Origin: Armatimonadota bacterium
Lineage (GTDB): Bacteria > Armatimonadota > UBA5829 > DTJY01
Direction of reading: 5' to 3'
DNA length: 64,000 bases
Assembly (NCBI GenBank): GCA_017993055.1
Contig: JAGONM010000015.1
Coordinates: 1-64,000, forward strand
Numbering within the stretch: the stretch's first letter is position 1; each line of letters starts with the position of its first letter. Of the stretch, positions 1,403 through 25,861 are shown piece by piece. Made by a program: the position numbers and the translations under genes. Below the pieces are notes generated by a model, which saw nothing but the letters and a program-made list of their open reading frames with translations, searched no databases and was not told the DNA's origin.

Positions 1403-2440
1403 ATGTCATTCATGCTCGACGAGATTCACGAACAGCCGCAGTTGATACAGAAGGTCATTGACGCGGAGCGGGGCAACGTCCGCAAGCTGTGCAAGGCCAT
1501 CCGTGAGCGCGGCGTCAAGATGGCGATCATCACCGCCCGGGGAACCTCGGACAACGCGGCGCTGTTCGGCAAGTACCTGTTCGAGATAGACAACGGCATA
1601 CCGGTGTCTCTCGCGGCCCCGTCGGTCATAACCCTCTACGACGCGAAGTTCGACCTCTCGAACGCACTGGTCATCGGCATCTCCCAGTCCGGCGAGTCCA
1701 CCGACGTGGTGCAGGTCATGCGGCGGGCGAAGGAGATGGGCGCCCTCACCGCGGGCATCACGAACGTGGCAGGCTCGGAACTGACCAAGATCGCGGACCA
1801 CACCCTGCTCTGCCACGCGGGCGAGGAGCGGAGCGTCGCGGCGACCAAGACGTACACCACCACACTCGCGCTGATATACATGATCTCGGACATCCTGGCG
1901 GTCGAGGACGACCTGATCCCGCGGCTCGAGGCGGCGGCGGGGATGATATCGAGGGTCTTCCAGGTGGAGAGCCGCATCGAGGAGATCGCCCAGCGGTACA
2001 GGTACATGGAGGAGTGCAAGGTCGTCGCGCGGGGGATGAACTACGCGACCAGCAAGGAGGCCGCGCTGAAGCTCGCGGAGACCTGCTACGTGTCGGCGGA
2101 GCCGTTCTCGATGGCCGACCTGATGCACGGCCCGATCGCCGTCGTGGACGCGGGCTTCCCGGTGTTCATGTACGCGCCCCAGGGCAAGGGCTTCCCGACG
2201 ATGGTGGAGCTTGCGGAGAAGCTCGTCGGGTGGGAAGTCGAGACGATCGTCTTCTCGAGCGAGGACGAGATCCTGAAGCTGGCGACGATACCGGTGAAGC
2301 TGCCGGTCGCGGTCGAGGAGACGTACAGCCCGCTGGTCTACATCGTGGCGGGCCAGCTCTTCGCGCAGTACCTCTCGGTCGTGAAGGGCCACGACCCCGA
2401 CCGCCCGAGGGGTCTGTGCAAGGTGACGCTGACGATGTAG
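1403..2440 (+). CDS. SIS-domain sugar-phosphate isomerase, GlmS C-terminal-domain type
   Basis: A 345-aa protein with two tandem SIS domains and no glutaminase domain. Sugar-phosphate-binding motifs are visible: SQSGEST at about 94-100, ERSVAATKTYT at about 142-152, KEAALKLAE further on, and HGP in the second domain. The C-terminus (CKVTLTM) resembles that of GlmS. Proteins of this shape include glucosamine-6-phosphate deaminase/isomerases and fructoselysine deglycases; the exact substrate is not determined. The start at 1403 is favoured over longer in-frame options by AAGGAG 8 bp upstream and because homology begins there. The stop codon is followed directly by a D hexamer array. Confidence 0.87.
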   Translation: MSFMLDEIHEQPQLIQKVIDAERGNVRKLCKAIRERGVKMAIITARGTSDNAALFGKYLFEIDNGIPVSLAAPSVITLYDAKFDLSNALVIGISQSGESTDVVQVMRRAKEMGALTAGITNVAGSELTKIADHTLLCHAGEERSVAATKTYTTTLALIYMISDILAVEDDLIPRLEAAAGMISRVFQVESRIEEIAQRYRYMEECKVVARGMNYATSKEAALKLAETCYVSAEPFSMADLMHGPIAVVDAGFPVFMYAPQGKGFPTMVELAEKLVGWEVETIVFSSEDEILKLATIPVKLPVAVEETYSPLVYIVAGQLFAQYLSVVKGHDPDRPRGLCKVTLTM

Positions 2441-2488
2441 CTCGTACTCCCAATCCTACTCGTACTCCTTATCGTACTCGTACTCGAG
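2441..2488 (+). repeat. D hexamer array after the SIS gene
   Basis: Degenerate tandem CTCGTA/CTCCTA hexamers begin immediately after the TAG stop at 2440. Read on the plus strand they are in the CTCGTA orientation, that is, inverted relative to the array that ends the next gene. There is little room for another promoter before the four-helix-bundle start at 2500. Confidence 0.85.
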
Positions 2489-2499
2489 AGGCCGCGGCG

Positions 2500-2904
2500 A
2501 TGGCTACCCGATTCGATCACGAGAAGTTGGATGTGTACCAGGAAGCCATTTCCTTCGTTGCCTGGGCCGACGACATCACTCAGTCCATGACGGGCAAGTG
2601 CTCTGTCAAGGACCAACTCGACCGGGCATCTACGAGCGTTCCGCTCAACATCGCCGAGGGGAATGCGAAGCGATCCATTCGCGACCGGTGTCGCTATCTG
2701 GATACTGCGTGCGGCTCGGCCCTGGAGTGCGCTGCCTGTCTGGATGTCATTGTGGCGAAGGGATTGCTGAGAGCGGACGACGTCGAGTGCGGGAAGGGCA
2801 AGCTGCAGCGGATAGTGTCCATGCTTGTGCGGCTCATCGAGAGCACGGCGAACCGAGTGGGAGAGGAAAGAGCCGAGTACGAGTACGAGTACGAGTACGA
2901 TTAA
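2500..2904 (+). CDS. Four-helix-bundle protein (S23/IVP/Avd-like family)
   Basis: A 134-aa, almost wholly helical protein. The family signature is clear: an N-terminal HEKLDVYQEA block, then DQLDRASTSVPLNIAEGNAK and a helix containing RYLDTACGSALE, as in the 23S rRNA intervening-sequence protein family (TIGR02436), which also includes the Avd subunit of diversity-generating retroelements. The cellular role of free-standing members is unknown. The C-terminus, EYEYEYEYD, is encoded by a D array at 2875-2904, so the repeat supplies the last ten residues and the stop. A D array in the opposite orientation lies just upstream. The Shine-Dalgarno sequence is weak. No reverse transcriptase or rRNA gene is nearby, so a canonical DGR or IVS is excluded within the window. 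Confidence 0.85.
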   Translation: MATRFDHEKLDVYQEAISFVAWADDITQSMTGKCSVKDQLDRASTSVPLNIAEGNAKRSIRDRCRYLDTACGSALECAACLDVIVAKGLLRADDVECGKGKLQRIVSMLVRLIESTANRVGEERAEYEYEYEYD

Positions 2905-3055
2905 GAGTAGGAGCAGGAACAGTAACCTGCATGGGCTGAGCATCGGCCTGCTGAAGAGCGCCGAGCTCCCGGACCTGAACGCCGATGCTTCGCCCGATTC
3001 GAGTACGATTACGAGTACGAGTACGAGTACGATTACGAGTAGGAGTAGGAGACTT
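2875..3055 (+). repeat. D-G-D repeat block between the four-helix-bundle and M20 genes
   Basis: GAGTAC-type hexamers (2875-2917) end the preceding gene. A G hairpin follows (2933-2995). A second hexamer array (2996-3051) then runs in the GAGTAC orientation and finishes as GAGTAGGAGTAGGAG, which places an AGGAG ribosome-binding sequence 5-9 bp before the ATG at 3057. The same D-G-D order recurs upstream of the NlpC/P60 gene. Confidence 0.85.
2933..2995 (+). repeat. G hairpin, divergent copy
   Basis: The outer stem is GGGC/GCCC and the inner stem AGCATCGGC/GCCGATGCT. Compared with the two G copies around the NlpC gene (inner stem AAGCATTTGC/GCAAATGCTT), both sides of the stem have changed together. 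The 3' flank, TTCGCCCGATTCGAG, is shared. Loop sequences differ apart from a short CGGAC-N-TGA stretch. Confidence 0.75.
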
Positions 3056-3056
3056 C

Positions 3057-4184
3057 ATGGCAAACCAGGAACGACTGATCAACGATTTCCTCCGCCTCGC
3101 GGCGGTGAACAGCCCGAGCAGGCACGAGAAGGAACTCGCCGACATCCTCGCGGGCGACCTTCAGGCGCTCGGACTCGAGGTGTCCCGCGACAACGCGGGC
3201 GAGCGGATCGGCGGCGACACCGGCAACGTCTACGGCTTCATGAGAGGGACCCTCCCGGACGCCGTGCCGATCATGCTCAGCGCGCACATGGACACCGTCT
3301 CCCCGACCACCGACGGGTGGGGCTACGAGATCGAGGGCGACACGATCCGCGGGCTCGGCAAGACGATCCTCGGCGCGGACGACAAGGCCGGGATCGCGGC
3401 GATCCTGGAGGGCATCCGCCTCGTTCAGGAGCGGGGAGTCCCCCACGGCGACGTGCAGGTCATGTTCAGCATCAGCGAGGAGACCGGGCTCTACGGCGCG
3501 CGGTACATGGACCCTGCGAAGCTCCGCGCGAGGTGCGCCTTCGTGCTCGACATGGGGAAGCCGGTCGGGTGCGTCACGGTCTCCGCCCCGTCCCACGACA
3601 ACATCCTCGTGAAGGTTCGCGGCAAGGCGGCCCACGCGGGCGCGCGCCCGGAGGACGGCATCAGCGCGGTGGTGGCGGCGAGCAAGGCGATCGCGAAGAT
3701 GAACCTCGGCCGCATTGACCCGGAGACGACCGCCAACATCGGCAGCATCGGCGGCGGCACGGCCCGGAACATCGTCCCCGAGTTCTGCGAGGTGCGGGGC
3801 GAGGCCAGGAGCCGGAACGACGAGAAGCTCGACGCGCAGGTGAAGCACATGACCGAGTGCTTCCGGGAGGCGGCGGCGGAGACGGGCGCGTCGGTCGAGG
3901 TCGAGGTCAACCGCTCATACCACACCTACCGCCTCACGGAGGACGACGAGGTGGTGCGGATCGCCCTGAGGGCGGCGCGGCGGGCGGGCATCGAGCCGAA
4001 ACTCCACGAGACCGGCGGGGGTAGCGACGCGAGCATCTTCAACGCGCAGGGCTTCCCGGCTACGGTGATCGGCGTCGGCTACGAGGGCGCCCACTCGGTG
4101 GACGAGCACATCACGATCCCGGACTGGCTGAAGTGCGCGGACATGGTGGCGGAGCTGGTGAAGGCGGCGGCGGAGCGCCTCTGA
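3057..4184 (+). CDS. M20 family aminopeptidase, peptidase T-like
   Basis: A 375-aa cytoplasmic zinc peptidase. M20 residues are in place: AHMDT at 76-80 (metal His77), ADDKAG at 107-112 (bridging Asp), EETGL at 141-145 (catalytic Glu and metal Glu), and a late GAHSVDEH block holding the last metal ligands. The tripeptidase/PepT-like branch is the best match; the dimerisation domain lies in the middle third. The ATG at 3057 is preferred because the longer frame only translates the D repeat (RVRVRV). The D array upstream provides the Shine-Dalgarno sequence. A matching inverted array begins directly after the stop codon, so the mRNA ends can pair (see findings). Confidence 0.88.
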   Translation: MANQERLINDFLRLAAVNSPSRHEKELADILAGDLQALGLEVSRDNAGERIGGDTGNVYGFMRGTLPDAVPIMLSAHMDTVSPTTDGWGYEIEGDTIRGLGKTILGADDKAGIAAILEGIRLVQERGVPHGDVQVMFSISEETGLYGARYMDPAKLRARCAFVLDMGKPVGCVTVSAPSHDNILVKVRGKAAHAGARPEDGISAVVAASKAIAKMNLGRIDPETTANIGSIGGGTARNIVPEFCEVRGEARSRNDEKLDAQVKHMTECFREAAAETGASVEVEVNRSYHTYRLTEDDEVVRIALRAARRAGIEPKLHETGGGSDASIFNAQGFPATVIGVGYEGAHSVDEHITIPDWLKCADMVAELVKAAAERL

Positions 4185-4330
4185 CTCCTACTCGTACTCG
4201 TAATCGTACTCGGGTTCAAAGTCCAGGGAATGGGACGGATGGGACCGATGGGATTGATGGGACTGCCGCCAATCACTAATCACCCATCAATCATCACTAA
4301 TCACTAATCACCAATCACTAATCACCCGTC
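4185..4330 (+). repeat. D-E-F composite repeat between convergent genes
   Basis: D hexamers in CTCGTA orientation (4185-4212) lead through a GGGTTCAAAGTCCAG linker into a short E segment of GGGACGGAT/GGGACCGAT type (about 4228-4264). An F heptamer array of ATCACTA/ATCACCA units (about 4270-4325) follows. F overlaps the 3' end of the minus-strand MFS gene and supplies its last codons and stop. The order and orientation match 12991-13137. Confidence 0.8.
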
Positions 4331-5705
4331 GCTCGTCGCTGTTCACCGCCTCGCGCAGATGCCCCGGCAGGTTCCGCACCATCTCCCTCGCGCAGCCCGC
4401 GTCCGGCTCCCTGATGCGCCCCGCAACCCACGCCGCCAGCAGGATGAACGGCACCGTCACGTAGAACGTGCACCGGATGTCGGTCGAGACGCCGAGCGCC
4501 TTGAGCCACTCAGGCAGGTGCCCCCCGATCGCCGGGAGCGGGGCCGCCAGGAGAAGAACCACCACCGAGTAGACCGCGAGCTGCACCGACCGCCCCGCGC
4601 TGGGGGTGATCTTGTAGATGAGCGTGTTCAGCGCCACCGATACGCCCGCCACGGCGAACCCCCCGATCAGGTTGACCGGTATCACCACGAGGTAGACCGT
4701 CAGCGGCTTCGTCAGCCCCAGCCAGACCAGCGGGATCGGAGACAGAGCGACCGAGCAGGCGATGAGCACCGGGCGGCAGCCGTATCGGTCCACCATCCTC
4801 CCCCAGAACGGCGACGACAGGAGCATCGTGACGGTCGCCACCCCGCCGAGTATCCCGAAGCCGAGGAACGGCATCTTCAGGTCGCGCAGGATGTACGTCG
4901 CGTAGAACGGCCCGGCGATCGCCTGGAACGACCAGATCACCGCGTAGAGCATCACGACCATCAGCGCCCGATTGGCGAGCGTGTCCCTCACCATGCCCCG
5001 AAAGCTCGGCCGCGTCTCGTGGTGGGTCATCGGCACGTCGGACTGCGGGAGGAACAGCAGGATGTTGACCAGCCCGAAGACCATGCCGAACATGAACAGC
5101 CAGCTGAACCCGGCGAGGCCGAAGTGCTTCGCGCGGTCGAGGAACGTGCCCTCGACGACGGCGAAGACCGCCCCGATGATCCCCGCGTACATTATCGCCC
5201 GCCCGAAGAACGTCCCGCGCTTCTTCGCCGGGATGAGGTCGCCGATCCAGCTCGACCGGGCGTTCCCCGCGACGTAGGCGAACATCGTGTTGACGGTGAT
5301 GACGCCGATCAGCCCGGCGATCTTCAGGTTCGCGGGCATCCCGCGGGTCAGGGACGGCATCATGATGATGACCAGCCAGCCGAGGACGCTGACGAGCGAC
5401 GCGGCGATCGTGAGCCGGCGCCGGCTTATCCCCCGCTCGATCAGCATCGAGGAGAGGAGTTGAACGACGATGGTCAGCATCGGGATCGTGCTCATCAGGC
5501 CGATCTGCACGTCGGTCGCGCCGAGTTGGAGCGCGTAGCCGATGAGGAACATCCCGCCGGTGGACGCGGCGAAGATGGCGCTCAGCATGGACTGGACGTA
5601 CGAGAACTTGATCGCGCGCTCGATCTCGCGGTCGGAGACGGGCGGGTCGGGCTGATCGGGGAGCAGGCTCTCTTCTGTCTGATTCTCGTCGGTTGGGGAA
5701 GTCAT
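4308..5705 (-). CDS. Major facilitator superfamily transporter
   Basis: About 465 aa with twelve predicted membrane helices in two halves and a soluble acidic N-terminus. The loop between helices 2 and 3 (SSMLIERGISRRRL) and a corresponding GRMVDRYGCRPV motif in the second half are typical MFS signatures. The AKKRGTFFGRAIMYAG segment suits a drug or metabolite exporter of the sugar-peptide group, but the substrate is unknown. I use the ATG at 5705; an in-frame TTG at 5732 with AGGA upstream would add nine residues. The last residues (VISDW) and the stop are encoded inside an F heptamer array, so the original C-terminus has probably been altered by the repeat. Confidence 0.85.
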   Translation of the reverse strand: MTSPTDENQTEESLLPDQPDPPVSDREIERAIKFSYVQSMLSAIFAASTGGMFLIGYALQLGATDVQIGLMSTIPMLTIVVQLLSSMLIERGISRRRLTIAASLVSVLGWLVIIMMPSLTRGMPANLKIAGLIGVITVNTMFAYVAGNARSSWIGDLIPAKKRGTFFGRAIMYAGIIGAVFAVVEGTFLDRAKHFGLAGFSWLFMFGMVFGLVNILLFLPQSDVPMTHHETRPSFRGMVRDTLANRALMVVMLYAVIWSFQAIAGPFYATYILRDLKMPFLGFGILGGVATVTMLLSSPFWGRMVDRYGCRPVLIACSVALSPIPLVWLGLTKPLTVYLVVIPVNLIGGFAVAGVSVALNTLIYKITPSAGRSVQLAVYSVVVLLLAAPLPAIGGHLPEWLKALGVSTDIRCTFYVTVPFILLAAWVAGRIREPDAGCAREMVRNLPGHLREAVNSDERRVISDW

Positions 5706-12959: not shown

Positions 12960-12990
12960 TCGGGGGCGGCGGCGCCCTCCGCCGCTCCTG

Positions 12991-13137
12991 CTCTCAATCC
13001 TACTCGTACTCGTACTCGTACTCGTACTCCAGTTCGCGGAATAGGACGGATATGACCGACGGGACGGATGGGACGCCCACCAATCACCACTCACCAATCA
13101 CCAATCACTAATCACTAATCACCGATCACTGGTCACC
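12991..13137 (+). repeat. D-E-F composite repeat, second copy
   Basis: D hexamers in CTCGTA orientation (12991-13030), an E segment with ATAGGACGGATATGACC (about 13031-13077) and an F array of CCAATCA/CTAATCA heptamers (13078-13131). Order and orientation equal 4185-4330. It begins ~30 bp after the GHL10 stop; a GC-rich stem (GCGGCGG/CCGCCGC) lies between and may be a terminator. Confidence 0.8.
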
Positions 13138-13142
13138 TATCT

Positions 13143-13916: not shown

Positions 13917-14804
13917 ATGCTCACCGACAACATACTCGATCTCATCGGCAACACGCCGCTCTTCCGGCTCAAGGGCGAGAACATATTCGCAAAGGCTGAG
14001 TTTCTCAATCCCGGGGGGAGCATCAAGGACCGGGTCGCGCTTGCGATGCTCGAAGGGGCCGAGCGCGACGGCAAGTTGACGCCCGACTCGATCATCGTCG
14101 AGCCGACATCCGGGAACACCGGGATCGGGATCGCGCTCGTCGGGCGGGTCAAGGGGTACAAGGTCCGCATCGTGATGCCCGAGGGGATGAGCGAGGAACG
14201 GAAGAAGCTGATCCTCGCGCTCGGGGCCGAGCTGATCCTCACGCCGGACTGCGAGAGCATCGGCGGCGCGGTGAAGAGGGTCAACGAGATCGCGGCCTCC
14301 GACCCGCGGGTCTACGTCCCCCAGCAGTTCGAGAACCCCGACAACCCGAGGGTCCACTACACCCAGACGGCGGTCGAGCTCTGGCGTCAGACGGGCGGCG
14401 AGGTGGACTGCTTCGTGGCGGGCGTAGGGAGCGGCGGGACCCTGCAGGGCGTCGGGACGTTCCTCAAGGAGCACAAGCCGGGCGCGCGCATCGTGGCGGT
14501 CGAGCCGAAGAACGTGTCGGCGCTCCTCGGCCATGAGCCGGGCCTGCATCAGATTCAGGGGATCGGCGATGGGTTCATCCCGGCGGTGCTCGACGTGTCG
14601 CTGGTTGACGAGGTGATCGAGGTGACCGACGAGGACGCGATCGAGACGACGCGGCAGCTCGGGCGCGACTTCGGCCTGCTCGTGGGGATTTCGTCCGGCG
14701 CGAACGTCTGGGCGGCGCGTGAACTGGCGAAGCGCATCCCCGGCAACATCGCGACGGTCCTCCCCGACCGTGCCGAGCGGTACTTCAGCACGGCGCTGCT
14801 CTAG
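13917..14804 (+). CDS. cysK: Cysteine synthase (O-acetylserine sulfhydrylase)
   Basis: A 295-aa PLP enzyme that converts O-acetylserine and sulfide to cysteine. NPGGSIKDR at 31-39 carries the Schiff-base Lys37. TSGNTG at 64-69 binds the substrate carboxylate, and GSGGTLQGVG forms the phosphate-binding loop. PEGMSEERK and the late GISSGAN are also conserved. The length is slightly short but complete for CysK; CysM or cystathionine beta-synthase-like use cannot be ruled out. The ATG at 13917 has GAGGGAT at good spacing; earlier codons only translate an A repeat. A palindromic D array begins at the stop. Confidence 0.92.
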   Translation: MLTDNILDLIGNTPLFRLKGENIFAKAEFLNPGGSIKDRVALAMLEGAERDGKLTPDSIIVEPTSGNTGIGIALVGRVKGYKVRIVMPEGMSEERKKLILALGAELILTPDCESIGGAVKRVNEIAASDPRVYVPQQFENPDNPRVHYTQTAVELWRQTGGEVDCFVAGVGSGGTLQGVGTFLKEHKPGARIVAVEPKNVSALLGHEPGLHQIQGIGDGFIPAVLDVSLVDEVIEVTDEDAIETTRQLGRDFGLLVGISSGANVWAARELAKRIPGNIATVLPDRAERYFSTALL

Positions 14805-14887
14805 CCCGTACTCGTAATCGTACTCGTAATCGTACTCGTAATCGTAATCGGGAGCTCCGGAGAGTACGAGTACGAGTAGGAGTACGA
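14805..14887 (+). repeat. Palindromic D array between convergent genes
   Basis: A CTCGTA/ATCGTA half (14808-14850) and a GAGTAC half (14862-14886) meet at a GGGAGCTCC centre and can form a ~25-bp imperfect stem. It lies exactly between the stop codons of cysK (+) and the propeller protein (-), where a bidirectional terminator would sit. Confidence 0.75.
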
Positions 14888-14896
14888 ACGGGACGG

Positions 14897-16365: not shown

Positions 16366-16446
16366 ACAAGTCCCATAGGTCCCATCAGTCTCATAGGTCC
16401 CATGGGACCCATAGGACGGATAAGACCAATATGACGAATGGGATGA
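16366..16446 (+). repeat. E 9-nt array upstream of the second four-helix-bundle gene
   Basis: Tandem 9-nt units of GTCCCATAG/GTCTCATAG type run to a CCATGGGAC centre and then reappear in inverted form (AGGACGGATAAGACC). The array is thus both periodic and palindromic. It ends ~30 bp before the gene start at 16476. Confidence 0.8.
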
Positions 16447-16475
16447 AGGACACGTCACCCGGAAAGGAGCCTGTC

Positions 16476-17036
16476 ATGCCGGACGGCTTCATCGCGCCGC
16501 ACGGCGGCTATGAGGCCCTGCTCTCCTACCGGAAGGCCCTCCTCGTCTTCGATGCCACCGTTTTCTTCTGCGAACGCTTCATAGACAGGCGCAGCCGCAC
16601 CTTCGACCAGATGGTTCAGGCCGCCCGATCCGGCAAGCAGAACATCGTGGAGGGCAGCGAGGCCGCCGCCGCCTCCAGTTCCACCGAGATCAAGCTCACC
16701 AACGTCGCCCGGGCAAGCCTGCAGGAGCTTCTCGAAGACTACAAGGACTTCCTTCGCCTGAAGAAGCTCCCGATCTGGGAGAAGGACCATCCGCAGGCGA
16801 AGGTCATCCGCGACCTGGCCTACGGGGCGAACGTGACCTACGGGACGTATGAGACGTATGTCGAGCAGGGCTCGCCCGAGGTCGCCGCGAACACCGTCAT
16901 CTGCCTGATCCACCAGGCCAACTACCTCCTCGACCGGCAGATCAGGAGCCTGGAGAAGAAGTTCCTGGAGGAGGGCGGCGTCCGCGAGCGGATGATGCGC
17001 GCCCGCCTCGACCACCGAGGCAAGCAGGGGCGCTAG
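16476..17036 (+). CDS. Four-helix-bundle protein with suffix domain
   Basis: A 186-aa helical protein. The core GYEALLSYRKALLVFDATVFFCERF ... DQMVQAARSGKQNIVEGSEA ... TNVARASLQELLEDYKDFL has the family pattern of S23/IVP-like bundles. The C-terminal extension LIHQANYLLDRQIRSLEKKFLEEGG matches the separate suffix-domain form of this family (TIGR04258-like). The function of such free-standing proteins is not established. The ATG at 16476 has AAAGGAG 6 bp upstream, a strong ribosome-binding site. E arrays lie on both sides, the downstream one starting at the stop codon. No reverse transcriptase is nearby. Confidence 0.82.
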   Translation: MPDGFIAPHGGYEALLSYRKALLVFDATVFFCERFIDRRSRTFDQMVQAARSGKQNIVEGSEAAAASSSTEIKLTNVARASLQELLEDYKDFLRLKKLPIWEKDHPQAKVIRDLAYGANVTYGTYETYVEQGSPEVAANTVICLIHQANYLLDRQIRSLEKKFLEEGGVRERMMRARLDHRGKQGR

Positions 17037-19145: not shown

Positions 19146-19147
19146 AC

Positions 19148-20097
19148 CGTCAGCCCTGAGTGCTCGGAGCGAAGCGGAGAGTGTATCGAAGGGCGGCCTT
19201 GCTCCACCAACCTCTGTACCTATGCCACCGTCCTTCGATACACGTCCCGGAGGACGCACTCAGGACTAGCGGGTCTTCTTCCGGCCACCTATCTCCGTCA
19301 GCCCTGAGTGCTCGGAGCGAAGCGAAGAGTGTATCGAAGGGCGGCCTTGCTCCGCCAACCCCTGCACCTGTGCCGTCGTCCTTCGATACACGCGCTGGAG
19401 CGCGCACTCAGGACTAGCGGGTTTTCTTCCGGTAACTGGTAACTGGTCACTGGTCACCCACACCGTCAGCCCTGAGTGCTCGGAGCGAAGCGGAGAGTGT
19501 ATCGAAGGGCGGCCTTGCTCCGCCAACCCCTGCACCTGTGCCATCGTCCTTCGATACACGCGCCGGAGCGCGCACTCAGGACTAGCGGGTTTTCTTCCGG
19601 TAACTGGTTACCGGCCACTGGTCACCCACACCGTCAGCCCTAAGTGCTCGGAGCGAAGCGGAGAGTGTATCGAAGGGCGTTCTTGCCGGTGCCGCCGTCC
19701 TTCGATACACGCGCCGGAGCGCGCACTCAGGACTAGCGGGTTTTCTTCCGGTAACTGATTACCGGTCACTGGTCACCCACTCCGTCAGCCCTGAGTGCTC
19801 GGAGCGAAGCGGAGAGTGTATCGAAGGGCGTTCTTGCCGGTGCCGCCGTCCTTCGATACACGCGCCGGAGCGCGCACTCAGGACTAGCGGGTCTTCTTCC
19901 GGTAACTGGTAACTGGTCACTGGTCACCCACACCGTCAGCCCTGAGTGCTCGGAGCGAAGCGGAGAGTGTATCGAAGGGCGGCCTTGCTCCGCCAACCCC
20001 TGCACCTGTGCCGTCGTCCTTCGATACACGCGCCGGAGCGCGCACTCAGGACTAGCGGGTTTTCTTCCGGTAACTGGTTACCGGTCACTGGTCACCC
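19148..20097 (+). repeat. Tandem array of six repeat A units with K heptamer spacers
   Basis: Six A inverted pairs with left arms at about 19148, 19297, 19463, 19634, 19784 and 19934. Each pair is followed by AGCGGGTTTTCTTCCGG and K heptamers (GGTAACT, GGTCACT). Unit length is 150-170 bp. Units 4 and 5 have lost part of the central spacer. The array ends at the stop of the DUF6785 gene. With the F and B blocks it fills 1.26 kb with no gene. Confidence 0.85.
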
Positions 20098-20098
20098 A

Positions 20099-22075: not shown

Positions 22076-22242
22076 GTCGGCTGCTCGTGAGCGGCGGAGG
22101 GGACCCGCGCCGGGCGTACTTCGGATGCGGCGTCTCCCTGAGTATATCGCCGGGGGCGCGCGTTGTCAACGGATGGGGAGAGTGGGCAAGCTCAGAGGCC
22201 GTTCTCCTCGAGTAGCCCGAAGGGCGTACCGAGAGGCGCGCG

Positions 22243-22762
22243 AGGCCGTCCTTCGATACACGCCCGGAGGCGCACTCAGGACTAGCGGGGCTTCTTCCTG
22301 TAACCTATCACCGTCAGCCCTGAGTGCTCGGAGCGAAGCGGAGAGTGTATCGAAGGGCGCGGGGAAGCAGAACCCCCTCGGCCCGGAGGCCGGTCCCCCT
22401 TGACAAGGGGGACAGCCCGGACGCTCCCCTCCTTATCAAGGAGGGGCCGGGGGAGGTTCCGGGAGGCCGTCCTTCGATACACGCGCCGGAGCGCGCACTC
22501 AGGACTAGCGGGTCTTCTTCCTGCAACCTATCTCCGTCAGCCCTGAGTGCTCGGAGCGAAGCGGAGAGTGTATCGAAGGGCGGCTGGGAAGCAGAACCCC
22601 CTCGGCCCGGAGGCCGGTCCCCCTTGACAAGGGGGACAGCGGAGTCGCTCCCCTCCTTATCAAGGAGGGGCCGGGGGAGGTTCCGGAAGGCCGTCTCCTT
22701 CGATACGCTGCGCTACTCAGGACAGGCTTCGATACACGCCCGGAGGCGCACTCAGGACTGGA
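22243..22762 (+). repeat. Repeat A pairs carrying C elements in their spacers
   Basis: A right arm (22245-22283), A left arm (22312-22360), C block (22363-22462), A right arm (22468-22503), A left arm (22534-22582), C block (22590-22688), a degenerate A fragment (about 22689-22723) and a final right arm (22723-22760). In both C copies the element replaces the normal A spacer. C holds CCCCCTT-GAC-AAGGGGG and CCCCTCCTT-ATC-AAGGAGGGG hairpins. The block fills most of the 786-bp gap; no gene is seen. Confidence 0.8.
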
Positions 22763-23701: not shown

Positions 23702-24466
23702 TTGGTGATGAGTGATGAGTGATGGGTGATGAGTGAACACCACACCGTCATGCTGAGCTTGACTCAGCATCCATCCGGAGGGTCCTGGATCCTGAATCGA
23801 GTTCAGGATGACGACACGTCGTTCAGGATGAGGGTCGGTTGTTCAGGGTGACGCCGGCCTTTCGTCTGACACACACCGTCAGCCCCTGCACCTGTGCCGC
23901 CGTCCTTCGATACACGTCCCGGAGGACGCACTCAGGACTAGCGGGTCTTCTTCCGGCCACCTATCTCCCTCAGCCCTGAGTGCTCGGAGCGAAGCGGGGA
24001 GTGTATCGAAGGGCGGCCTTGCTCCACCAACCTCTGTACCTATGCCACCGTCCTTCGATACACGTCCCGGAGGACGCACTCAGGACTAGCGGGTTTTCTT
24101 CCGACCACCTATCTCCGTCAGCCCTGAGTGCTCGTAGCGAAGCGGAGAGTGTATCGAAGGGCGCGGGGAAGCAGAACCCCCTCGGCCCGGAGGCCGGTCC
24201 CCCTTGACAAGGGGGACAGCCCGGAAGCTCTCCTCCTTGCGCAAGAAGCCACACCTGCTCCCCTCCTTGTCAAGGAGGGGCCGGGGGAGGTTCCGGGAGA
24301 GGCCGTCCCATTGCTCGAACCTTGAAACCGAGGAGGTTACTGCAGGGGCCAAGCATTTGCCCTTCGGACTGAGACCCGGCGTCGGACATGACCGCAAATG
24401 CTTCGCCCGATTCGAGGACGATTACGAGTACGAGTAGGAGTACGAGTCGGAGCAGGGGCGGGGGCG
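23702..24466 (+). repeat. Left arm of the mirrored repeat cassette around the NlpC/P60 gene
   Basis: Order left to right: F (23702-23736), B (23747-23870), A right arm and full A pairs (23879-24090), A left arm (24116-24163), C (24164-24305), G hairpin (24345-24408), D hexamers (24413-24455). Every element reappears in reverse order and inverted at 25268-25861. It also contains one extra A pair that the right arm lacks. No gene is seen. Confidence 0.85.
24345..24408 (+). repeat. G hairpin, left copy
   Basis: GGG...CCC outer and AAGCATTTGC/GCAAATGCTT inner stem around a ~30-nt loop containing CTGAGACCCGGCGTCGGACA. Near-identical (inverted) to 25324-25387. Confidence 0.8.
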
Positions 24467-25267
24467 CTACACCCCCGGCATCCTCCGCGCGCCCCAGTAG
24501 TTCGCCTCGTATGGCTCATCCGTCAGGCGGTTTATCCCGACGCCCGCGCCCCCGGATGAGTGAATGAACGTCCCGTCGCCGACCGCCATCCCGACGTGCG
24601 TGATCCGGGCCTTGTCCTCGCCACCCGCGAAGAAGACCAGGTCGCCCGCAACGAGATCGCCCTTCTCGACCGGGACCGCCCTCGGATCGCCCGCCTGGAT
24701 GCCCGCGTCGCGGAGCAGGTGGATGCCGTTCAGCTTGTAGCTGAGCTGCACGAACCCCGAGCAGTCAATGCCGAACGGACTGGAGCCGCCCCAGAGGTAC
24801 GGCACGCCGATGAACCGCCGGCCGGTCTCGACGATCTCCGCGCCGGTCGCGCCGAACGGGAGCATCTGGTCGCCCGCCGGAGTCACGCTCACTTCGTTCG
24901 CCGGCACCCATGCCTCCCGTCCGTCCGGAAGCCGCACGCGCGCAAACTTCCCGTCGGTCCCGAGCGCCTCCATCGCGGCAGTGACGACGAGGATCGTGTG
25001 ATGGCCCGATGACGCGTCGGGCGCCCGGTACGCGTATGAGAAGGCGGGCAGTACCGCCGCTATCCGGGCCGGGCTCCACTCGCCCTCGCGCACCCACCGG
25101 GCCTCGATCCAGCCGTGGTAGCCGTCCCAGGTCCGTATGTAAAGCCAGCCGCCTTCTTCCTTCTCGATCTCGACCGGCTGGCCCATTATCGCCTGGCTCA
25201 CCTGCTCGGAGTTGCGGGTGGTCTCGGCGTACATCGCCGCCACGTTCTTCGTGATCGTTCCGTGCAT
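24467..25267 (-). CDS. NlpC/P60 peptidoglycan endopeptidase with SH3 domains
   Basis: 266 aa. N-terminal bacterial SH3-like domains (about 1-65 and 70-130: EGGWLYIRTWDGYHGWIEARWV, then RVRLPDGREAWVPANEV) precede an NlpC/P60 cysteine peptidase domain. Catalytic Cys169 lies in GIDCSGFVQ, His224 in ITHVGMAVGDG, and a third polar residue near His236 in FIHSSGG. The layout equals gamma-D-glutamyl-L-diamino-acid endopeptidases such as YkfC. No signal peptide is visible, so it may act on murein peptides in the cytoplasm (recycling). The ATG at 25267 follows AGGAGG from the flanking D array. The gene stands at the centre of a mirrored repeat cassette. Confidence 0.88.
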   Translation of the reverse strand: MHGTITKNVAAMYAETTRNSEQVSQAIMGQPVEIEKEEGGWLYIRTWDGYHGWIEARWVREGEWSPARIAAVLPAFSYAYRAPDASSGHHTILVVTAAMEALGTDGKFARVRLPDGREAWVPANEVSVTPAGDQMLPFGATGAEIVETGRRFIGVPYLWGGSSPFGIDCSGFVQLSYKLNGIHLLRDAGIQAGDPRAVPVEKGDLVAGDLVFFAGGEDKARITHVGMAVGDGTFIHSSGGAGVGINRLTDEPYEANYWGARRMPGV

Positions 25268-25861
25268 TCTTTCCTCCTGCTCCTACTCCTACTCGTAATC
25301 GTACTCGTACTCGTACTCCAATCGGGCGAAGCATTTGCGCTCATGTCCGACGCCGGGTCTCAGTCCGAAGGGCAAATGCTTGGCCCCTACAGTAACCTGC
25401 TCCTACTCGGGTTCAGAGTCCAGCGAATGGGACGGCCTCCCGGAACCTCCCCCAGCCCCTCCTTGACAAGGAGGGGAGCAGGTGTGGCTTCTTGCTCAAG
25501 GAGAGAGCTTCCGGGCTGTCCCCCTTGTCAAGGGGGACCGGCCTCCGGGCCGAGGGGGTTCTGCTTCCCCGCGCCCTTCGATACACTCTCCGCTTCGCTC
25601 CGAGCACTCAGGGCTGACGGTGTGTGTCGCATGTAGTACCGGCGTCACCCTGAACGACCGACCGTCATCCTGAACGACGTGTCGTCATCCTGAACTCGAT
25701 TCAGGATCCAGGACCACCCCGGATGGATGCTGAGTCAAGCTCAGCATGACGGCGGGGCGGCTCTTGCACGTCACTCATCACCCATCACTAATCACTCATC
25801 ACCCATCACCAATCACTCATCACCCATCACTAATAACTCATCACCCTTCACCTGCCTGATG
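25268..25861 (+). repeat. Right arm of the mirrored repeat cassette around the NlpC/P60 gene
   Basis: Order left to right: D (25275-25318), G (25324-25387), short D and E linker (25398-25434, GGGTTCAGAGTCCAG), C (25437-25575), A left arm inverted (25573-25620), B inverted (25625-25757), linker, F inverted (25770-25858). It abuts the korC stop codon. No gene is seen. Confidence 0.85.
25324..25387 (-). repeat. G hairpin, right copy
   Basis: Inverted copy of 24345-24408 with the same AAGCATTTGC/GCAAATGCTT stem; a single loop difference (GAGCGC instead of GACCGC) is evident. Confidence 0.8.

Follow-up and report, generated by a model that had tools for sequence, protein, structure and literature searches.

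Short tandem arrays in an Armatimonadota genome as probable arms of hairpin elements allied to four-helix-bundle genes

Intervening sequences (IVSs) of 23S rRNA genes contain an S23/PF05635 open reading frame (ORF) within terminal inverted repeats that form a stem, 28 bp long in Coxiella (PMC4990558). REPINs, in turn, are inverted doublets that form hairpins and are dispersed extragenically, each family being tied to a single-copy gene with its repeats alongside (PMC3116915). The TAACTGA repeats of the Beggiatoaceae are short, tandem and intergenic, and are directed mostly toward start codons (PMC4679880). The PF05635 family also resembles Avd, the accessory protein of diversity-generating retroelements (DGRs), and the structures 4DWL and 2GSC are homologous (PMC10053308). 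Here we examine arrays of GAGTAC-type hexamers, named D arrays, in a 64,000-nt stretch of DNA from an Armatimonadota bacterium (the window; positions 1 to 64,000 of contig JAGONM010000015.1, assembly GCA_017993055.1), where they stand beside several genes and enclose one that encodes a four-helix-bundle (4HB) protein of the PF05635 family.

In cyanobacteria, heptanucleotide short tandem repeats are known as STRRs. Like a 23S IVS, the element in the window has an S23/PF05635 protein and terminal inverted repeats with a predicted stem (2500-2904 and its flanks), but it lies between protein genes, an SIS-domain gene and a pepT-like gene, and not within a 23S rRNA gene; its arms are tandem repeats, mostly of 6-10 nt with a unit particular to each locus, and copies consisting of an arm only are scattered. 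As with REPINs, inverted doublets are dispersed, both as D pairs in -/+ order and as mini-elements in another genome, although single D arms are commoner (24/31); the partner gene found encodes a four-helix-bundle protein instead of a tyrosine transposase (RAYT), and the arms are short tandem repeats. What sets the present repeats apart from STRRs and TAACTGA is that they form the arms of PF05635 elements, cyanobacterial plasmids included, while the cited passages of PMC4679880 name no partner gene. With the DGR protein Avd, the feature compared is the PF05635 family resemblance. We consider it probable that these arrays represent arms of hairpin elements, similar to IVSs and REPINs, that are built from short tandem repeats.

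Inverted arms around four-helix-bundle genes

The D repeat is far above chance in this 3.72-Mb genome: the 18-base pattern GAGTAYGAKTASGAKTAS, with at most one mismatch allowed, gives 47 + 50 matches (97 in total), and the reversed pattern, used as a control, gives 1 + 0. The widest opposite-strand D pair in the window encloses the 4HB gene at 2500-2904 in -/+ order, its right arm encoding the C-terminus and stop of that gene. Arms 2441-2486 and 2874-2918 form 32 arm-arm pairs in the predicted minimum-free-energy (MFE) structure, and in this predicted fold a panhandle-like design exists around the 4HB gene, with the arms enclosing its ORF. Every one of the five opposite-strand D pairs no more than 400 nt apart here reads CTCGTA and then GAGTAC (-/+), as do 51/57 such pairs in Planctomycetota and Verrucomicrobiota loci; a shorter pair in the window, at 14800-14895, folds at a predicted -44 kcal/mol. 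On contig C10 lies another strong 4HB gene, the only further one of this genome, enclosed by arms of a heptamer, H, which is itself dispersed, with 42 + 38 matches and 3 + 2 for its reversed control. One Planctomycetota metagenome-assembled genome (L065, L067, L114, L151 and other JACRIP loci) carries numerous D hairpins whose core is short and often of the palindromic type AATGCCCTGGGCGTT; no PF05635 gene was found in the stretches taken from its JACRIP loci.

The same anatomy recurs around PF05635 genes elsewhere. Sixty PF05635 loci were examined, 55 of them with at least 250 nt on each side, and arms were called where the flanks, aligned in inverted orientation, reached a best score of at least 15. 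This was so in 44/55 loci vs 1/600 random windows. At least six inverted 8-mers were shared by the flanks in 39/55 loci and at least ten in 31/55, the corresponding figures for 3000 random and 577 same-locus control windows being about 5% and about 0.5%; direct repeats with six or more shared 8-mers were present at only two PF05635 loci. By sequence, an arm-4HB-arm arrangement is a strong trend over the 55 loci. Each arm consists of short tandem repeats, mostly with a period of 6-10 nt, and the unit differs from locus to locus. Mean arm identity was 0.87 in register vs 0.72 when shifted (44 loci), a comparison biased toward in-register identity because the arms had been chosen as the best alignment; permutation of the unit order gave a Fisher P of 0.0015 over 42 loci. 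To judge from the sequences, the arms abut stop codons: their outer ends lie at a median of 0 nt from stops, within 15 nt on 40/45 stop sides, and at a median of 19.5 nt from starts (38 start sides). Co-directionality with the neighbours on both sides was seen for 31/41 elements.

Plasmids provided a further sample, in which 25 records were matched by the protein of locus L231 and 18 loci were taken (16 cyanobacterial, 1 from Gemmatirosa and 1 from Azospirillum). An inverted alignment of at least 14.5, the threshold for this sample, was reached in 17/18 loci vs 0/720 base-shuffled flanks, and at least six inverted shared 8-mers in 16/18 vs 33/720. A tblastn search of plasmids with the 4HB protein of the window gave no match. 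Eight loci on viral contigs, partly near-copies of one another, were left out of the totals; four of them (L341-L344) have no arms. Some plasmid 4HB genes with inverted repeat arms lie within CRISPR operons of cyanobacteria (L347, L358, L353), in the order cas6-4HB-cas4 in both Anabaena sp. 90 and Pseudanabaena galeata and in the order cas10-4HB-cmr3 once, in Picosynechococcus sp. PCC 7003. On plasmid pNe_5 of Nostoc edaphicum (L345), the 4HB gene stands antisense between two ribonucleotide reductase subunit genes.

The repeat unit of a 4HB element can also be shared with arrays scattered over the same genome. In one genome (G043), the unit TTCGACT of such an element has 16 + 24 matches, vs 0-2 in each of nine others, and the copies are mainly short arm-spacer-arm units, many of them -/+ pairs, with spacers that differ. 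The unit CGCTAAA of another genome (G144) has 17 + 7 matches there and none in nine other genomes. By comparison with homologues in other genomes, one G043 mini-element is an insertion in a coding gene, where about 27 extra in-frame residues (query 177-203) have no counterpart in those homologues; many homologues match residues 1-175 and 206-480 as separate pieces. Nine homologue loci were considered in alignment with the G043 gene, L330 and L332 being left unaligned (match on the other strand), and five are without the inserted segment.

Orientation of D arrays and supply of Shine-Dalgarno motifs

Arrays were placed in the stretches around pattern matches, which gave 34 arrays at a score of at least 16, 3 inside genes and 31 intergenic; among the latter, the array at 2874-2918 extends into the 3' end of the 4HB gene, and its score was taken relative to the genes on either side. 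In 27 intergenic arrays the gene-facing end is the 3' end in GAGTAC sense, and in 4 it is the opposite one. The GAGTAC-sense 3' end lies within 25 nt of a gene in 26/31 (14 starts and 12 stops), the opposite end in just 6 of 31. The initial annotation had noted, for the cases it saw, that arrays read GAGTAC before starts and CTCGTA past stops, and had suggested a genome-wide tally of orientation; run across the arrays in the genome, that tally does reveal a bias, 27 vs 4. The rule stands as a description, but not as a code for starts and stops, its real content being 'toward the nearest gene end'. Since Planctomycetota and Verrucomicrobiota copies have no bias between starts and stops, the start/stop code was given up for arms that point outward. 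If inverted arms each read outward toward the flanking gene, GAGTAC before starts and CTCGTA past stops would follow from that geometry, which better explains the polarity. In a same-family relative (G003; loci L180-L219), a GAGTAA/GAGTAC version of the array is commoner before starts than at stops.

The annotation had also placed the Shine-Dalgarno (SD) sequence within the 5' arrays, and this was borne out: most start-proximal D arrays have an SD-like motif, found 4-12 nt ahead of the start in 12/14 and wholly within the delimited array in 8/14, counts that are somewhat inflated at array-bearing starts by our home-made codon-score gene caller, which rewards SD-like motifs. The background frequency of AGGAG/GGAGG is 110/250 genes. 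The units closest to the gene include GAGTAG and GAGCAGGAG at many starts, and likewise at several stops.

These motifs invite an account by selection on translation only, in which the arrays are expanded SD sequences at starts and stop-side arrays are kept only in the orientation that creates no SD sequence. Besides the SD-like motifs themselves, arrays on the start side in many cases stop 0-6 nt short of the start, as such an account would have it, and selection of this kind probably helps to orient and retain arrays in this genome. As the whole explanation, however, we regard it as unlikely. The GAGTAG and GAGCAGGAG variants at stops are antisense there; the SD-less heptamer H arrays mostly read toward the nearest gene as well, and these arrays together with the arm-end positions suggest that non-SD units keep their polarity genome-wide. 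Inverted arms of unrelated units around 4HB genes are not predicted by it either.

Quite unlikely, in our judgement, is a role of the D arrays as binding sites of a regulator. Some D pairs do form long intergenic hairpins, that at 14800-14895 among them, and a precedent for polarity is found in MacGregor 2015, whose cited passages describe TAACTGA sets mostly directed toward start codons and one set, reversed, right after a stop (PMC4679880). But 24/31 D arrays are single, the 250 nt on their 5' side containing no opposite arm, and a regulator site would not be expected to have genome-specific units in common with 4HB arms, as seen in G043 and G144. Rho utilisation by C-rich stop-side arrays was considered only as an idea, and was dropped because H arrays past stops show no C-richness on the sense strand of the gene. 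Telomerase-like end-healing, with units added outward, was likewise entertained as an idea.

Arrays at both ends of the pepT-like and NlpC/P60 genes

The pepT-like gene is preceded by (GAGTAC/GATTAC/GAGTAG)n, which ends in AGGAG 5 nt ahead of its ATG, and is followed immediately past its stop by the D family on the opposite strand (Table 1). The two arrays are mirrored as initially described, positions 3025-3051 being identical to the reverse complement of 4185-4211 at 26/27 positions, and the NlpC/P60 gene indeed has the same arrangement. A functional 5'-3' panhandle had been proposed from this, in which the arrays of one mRNA pair and so hide the SD sequence or protect the ends. The predicted MFE structure of 2995-4216 contains 27 arm-arm pairs with a mean pairing probability of 0.54, and 37 are predicted for the NlpC arrays. 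The predicted pepT pairing could thus form thermodynamically, but it follows from a sequence that allows folding and says nothing about function. Within the window alone, both start-arrayed genes are also stop-arrayed (P=0.013). Over the sampled stretches of the genome, only 2 of the 14 start-arrayed genes carry a stop array as well (12 of the 268 genes called have a stop array; expected 0.63, P=0.12).

Nor is the complementarity special to this pair. The 5' arm of the pepT-like gene matches that of the NlpC gene at 27/27 positions, and 58/378 arm pairs reach at least 26/27, so that arms of different genes match equally well or better; single arrays show the polarity too. A panhandle as a general function was set aside, co-occurrence on one gene not clearly exceeding chance over the sampled stretches and complementarity not being particular to the pair, and we consider a host-gene panhandle very improbable. 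The pepT arrays are complementary because both belong to one family. Most likely the pair consists of two separate arms that flank one gene by chance, the start-side arm having turned into the ribosome-binding site of that gene.

Table 1. Repeat arrays and associated genes in the window
Feature	Position	Strand	Evidence or remark
SIS-domain gene	1403-2440	+	PF01380; stop abuts left arm (0 nt)
Left D arm of 4HB element	2441-2486	-	GAGTAC sense on minus strand
Four-helix-bundle S23/IVP-like gene	2500-2904	+	PF05635, E 3.9e-21; PDB 2gsc, E 1.1e-9
Right D arm of 4HB element	2874-2918	+	
Dispersed palindrome P, GAGCATCGGC...GCCGATGCTTCGCCCGATT	2926-2999	.	Between two D arrays; approximate extent, edges by eye
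D array carrying pepT-like ribosome-binding site	3000-3051	+	3' end AGGAG
pepT-like M20-family peptidase gene	3057-4184	+	PF01546, PF07687
D array directly past pepT stop	4184-4212	-	GAGTAC sense toward gene on minus strand
Nonamer (N) array, GTCCCATMS	4230-4263	-	
Heptamer (H) array, MATCACY	4269-4327	+	Runs into stop of next gene, 4308-5705 (-)
D array past stop of 703-aa gene	12985-13030	-	Then N array 13044-13075 and H array 13078-13141
Two-armed D hairpin, left arm	14807-14850	-	Between two stops
Same D hairpin, right arm	14862-14887	+	11-nt spacer
Gene with weak PF05635 match	16431-17036	+	22.1-23.6 bits (cut-off 33.8); nonamer arrays both sides, weak inverted-arm evidence
D array past stop of NlpC/P60 gene	24413-24456	+	Gene 24467-25267, minus strand
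D array ahead of NlpC/P60 start	25274-25319	-	Carries SD of that gene

Other repeats accompany these arrays. A dispersed palindrome of the type TAGGGGC.AAGCATT...AATGCTTCGCCCGATT lies between or ahead of D arrays, as palindrome P and also before the arrays at 24413 and 25274. As the core of a D element it is a doubtful candidate, its right-end 10-mer, TGCTTCGCCC, standing ahead of just 8/43 D arrays. The order of repeat families outward from the gene is the same at 4184-4327 and 12985-13141, namely D hexamer, N nonamer and H heptamer, the last on the opposite strand. Long tandem repeats of 148-224 bp (CCGTCAGCCCTGAGTGCTCGGAGCGAAGC...) occupy 19147-20098 and 22242-22706.

Proposed hairpin elements and their possible spread

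The elements envisaged would have a full form, in which a PF05635 S23/IVP gene lies between two inverted arms, and short forms with two arms and a short spacer, which together with single arms would be scattered over the genome. They may move as hairpin units, and the 4HB protein might help this movement, acting like its relative Avd, the DGR accessory protein. An RNA stem could set the 4HB message apart from the host operon, much as does the RNase III-cut stem of a 23S IVS. Near starts, orientation would be further selected, since D units supply AGGAG, and the complementarity at the two ends of pepT would be a by-product of two separate arms beside one gene. On the best reading of the arrays, some arms have been co-opted as ribosome-binding sites; mobility, and a part of the 4HB protein in it, we infer.

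Several observations weigh against this explanation. Single D arms, too, favour the direction of the nearest gene (20:4), for which two-armed geometry alone is insufficient, and polarity is weaker in the relative G003 (25:12). G003 has 13 PF05635 genes, and none of the 8 examined has D-type arms; across other genomes, the stretches around matches contain a PF05635 gene in 0/116 D-pattern loci, and D arrays there therefore occur without a nearby 4HB gene. Eleven of the 55 PF05635 loci fall under the arm threshold, and the register test of the arms is significant just modestly. Just one insertion was compared with homologues, two of whose nine loci (L334 and L335) carry different extra residues nearby; at this insertion a target-site duplication is not obvious by eye, and movement of an element was not observed. 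We know of no catalytic activity of PF05635 proteins.

The D arrays probably give one view of the arms of hairpin elements that resemble 23S IVSs in content and REPINs in behaviour. In our searches of the open-licence PMC literature we found no link of PF05635, S23 or four-helix-bundle genes to short tandem repeats, and PMC5524665 proved unrelated. More speculatively, and with somewhat more doubt than confidence, we suggest that S23/IVP 4HB genes may belong to a widespread class of selfish elements in bacteria, with inverted short tandem repeats at both ends and a unit private to each element, that each gene seeds its own hairpin mini-elements, and that many unexplained bacterial 6-9-nt tandem repeats, of the STRR and TAACTGA types, are their arms. 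Their spread may use an RNA hairpin, a host reverse transcriptase and an Avd-like 4HB protein, with insertion by stops mostly in the sense direction.

If this is true, it would provide a common origin for the role of S23/IVP outside rRNA, for the source of intergenic 6-9-nt repeats in cyanobacteria and other bacteria, and for the way in which these repeats point at genes. In any genome, the unit of the arms of a PF05635 gene should then mark scattered copies, and the D arrays show how such repeats can turn into ribosome-binding sites.
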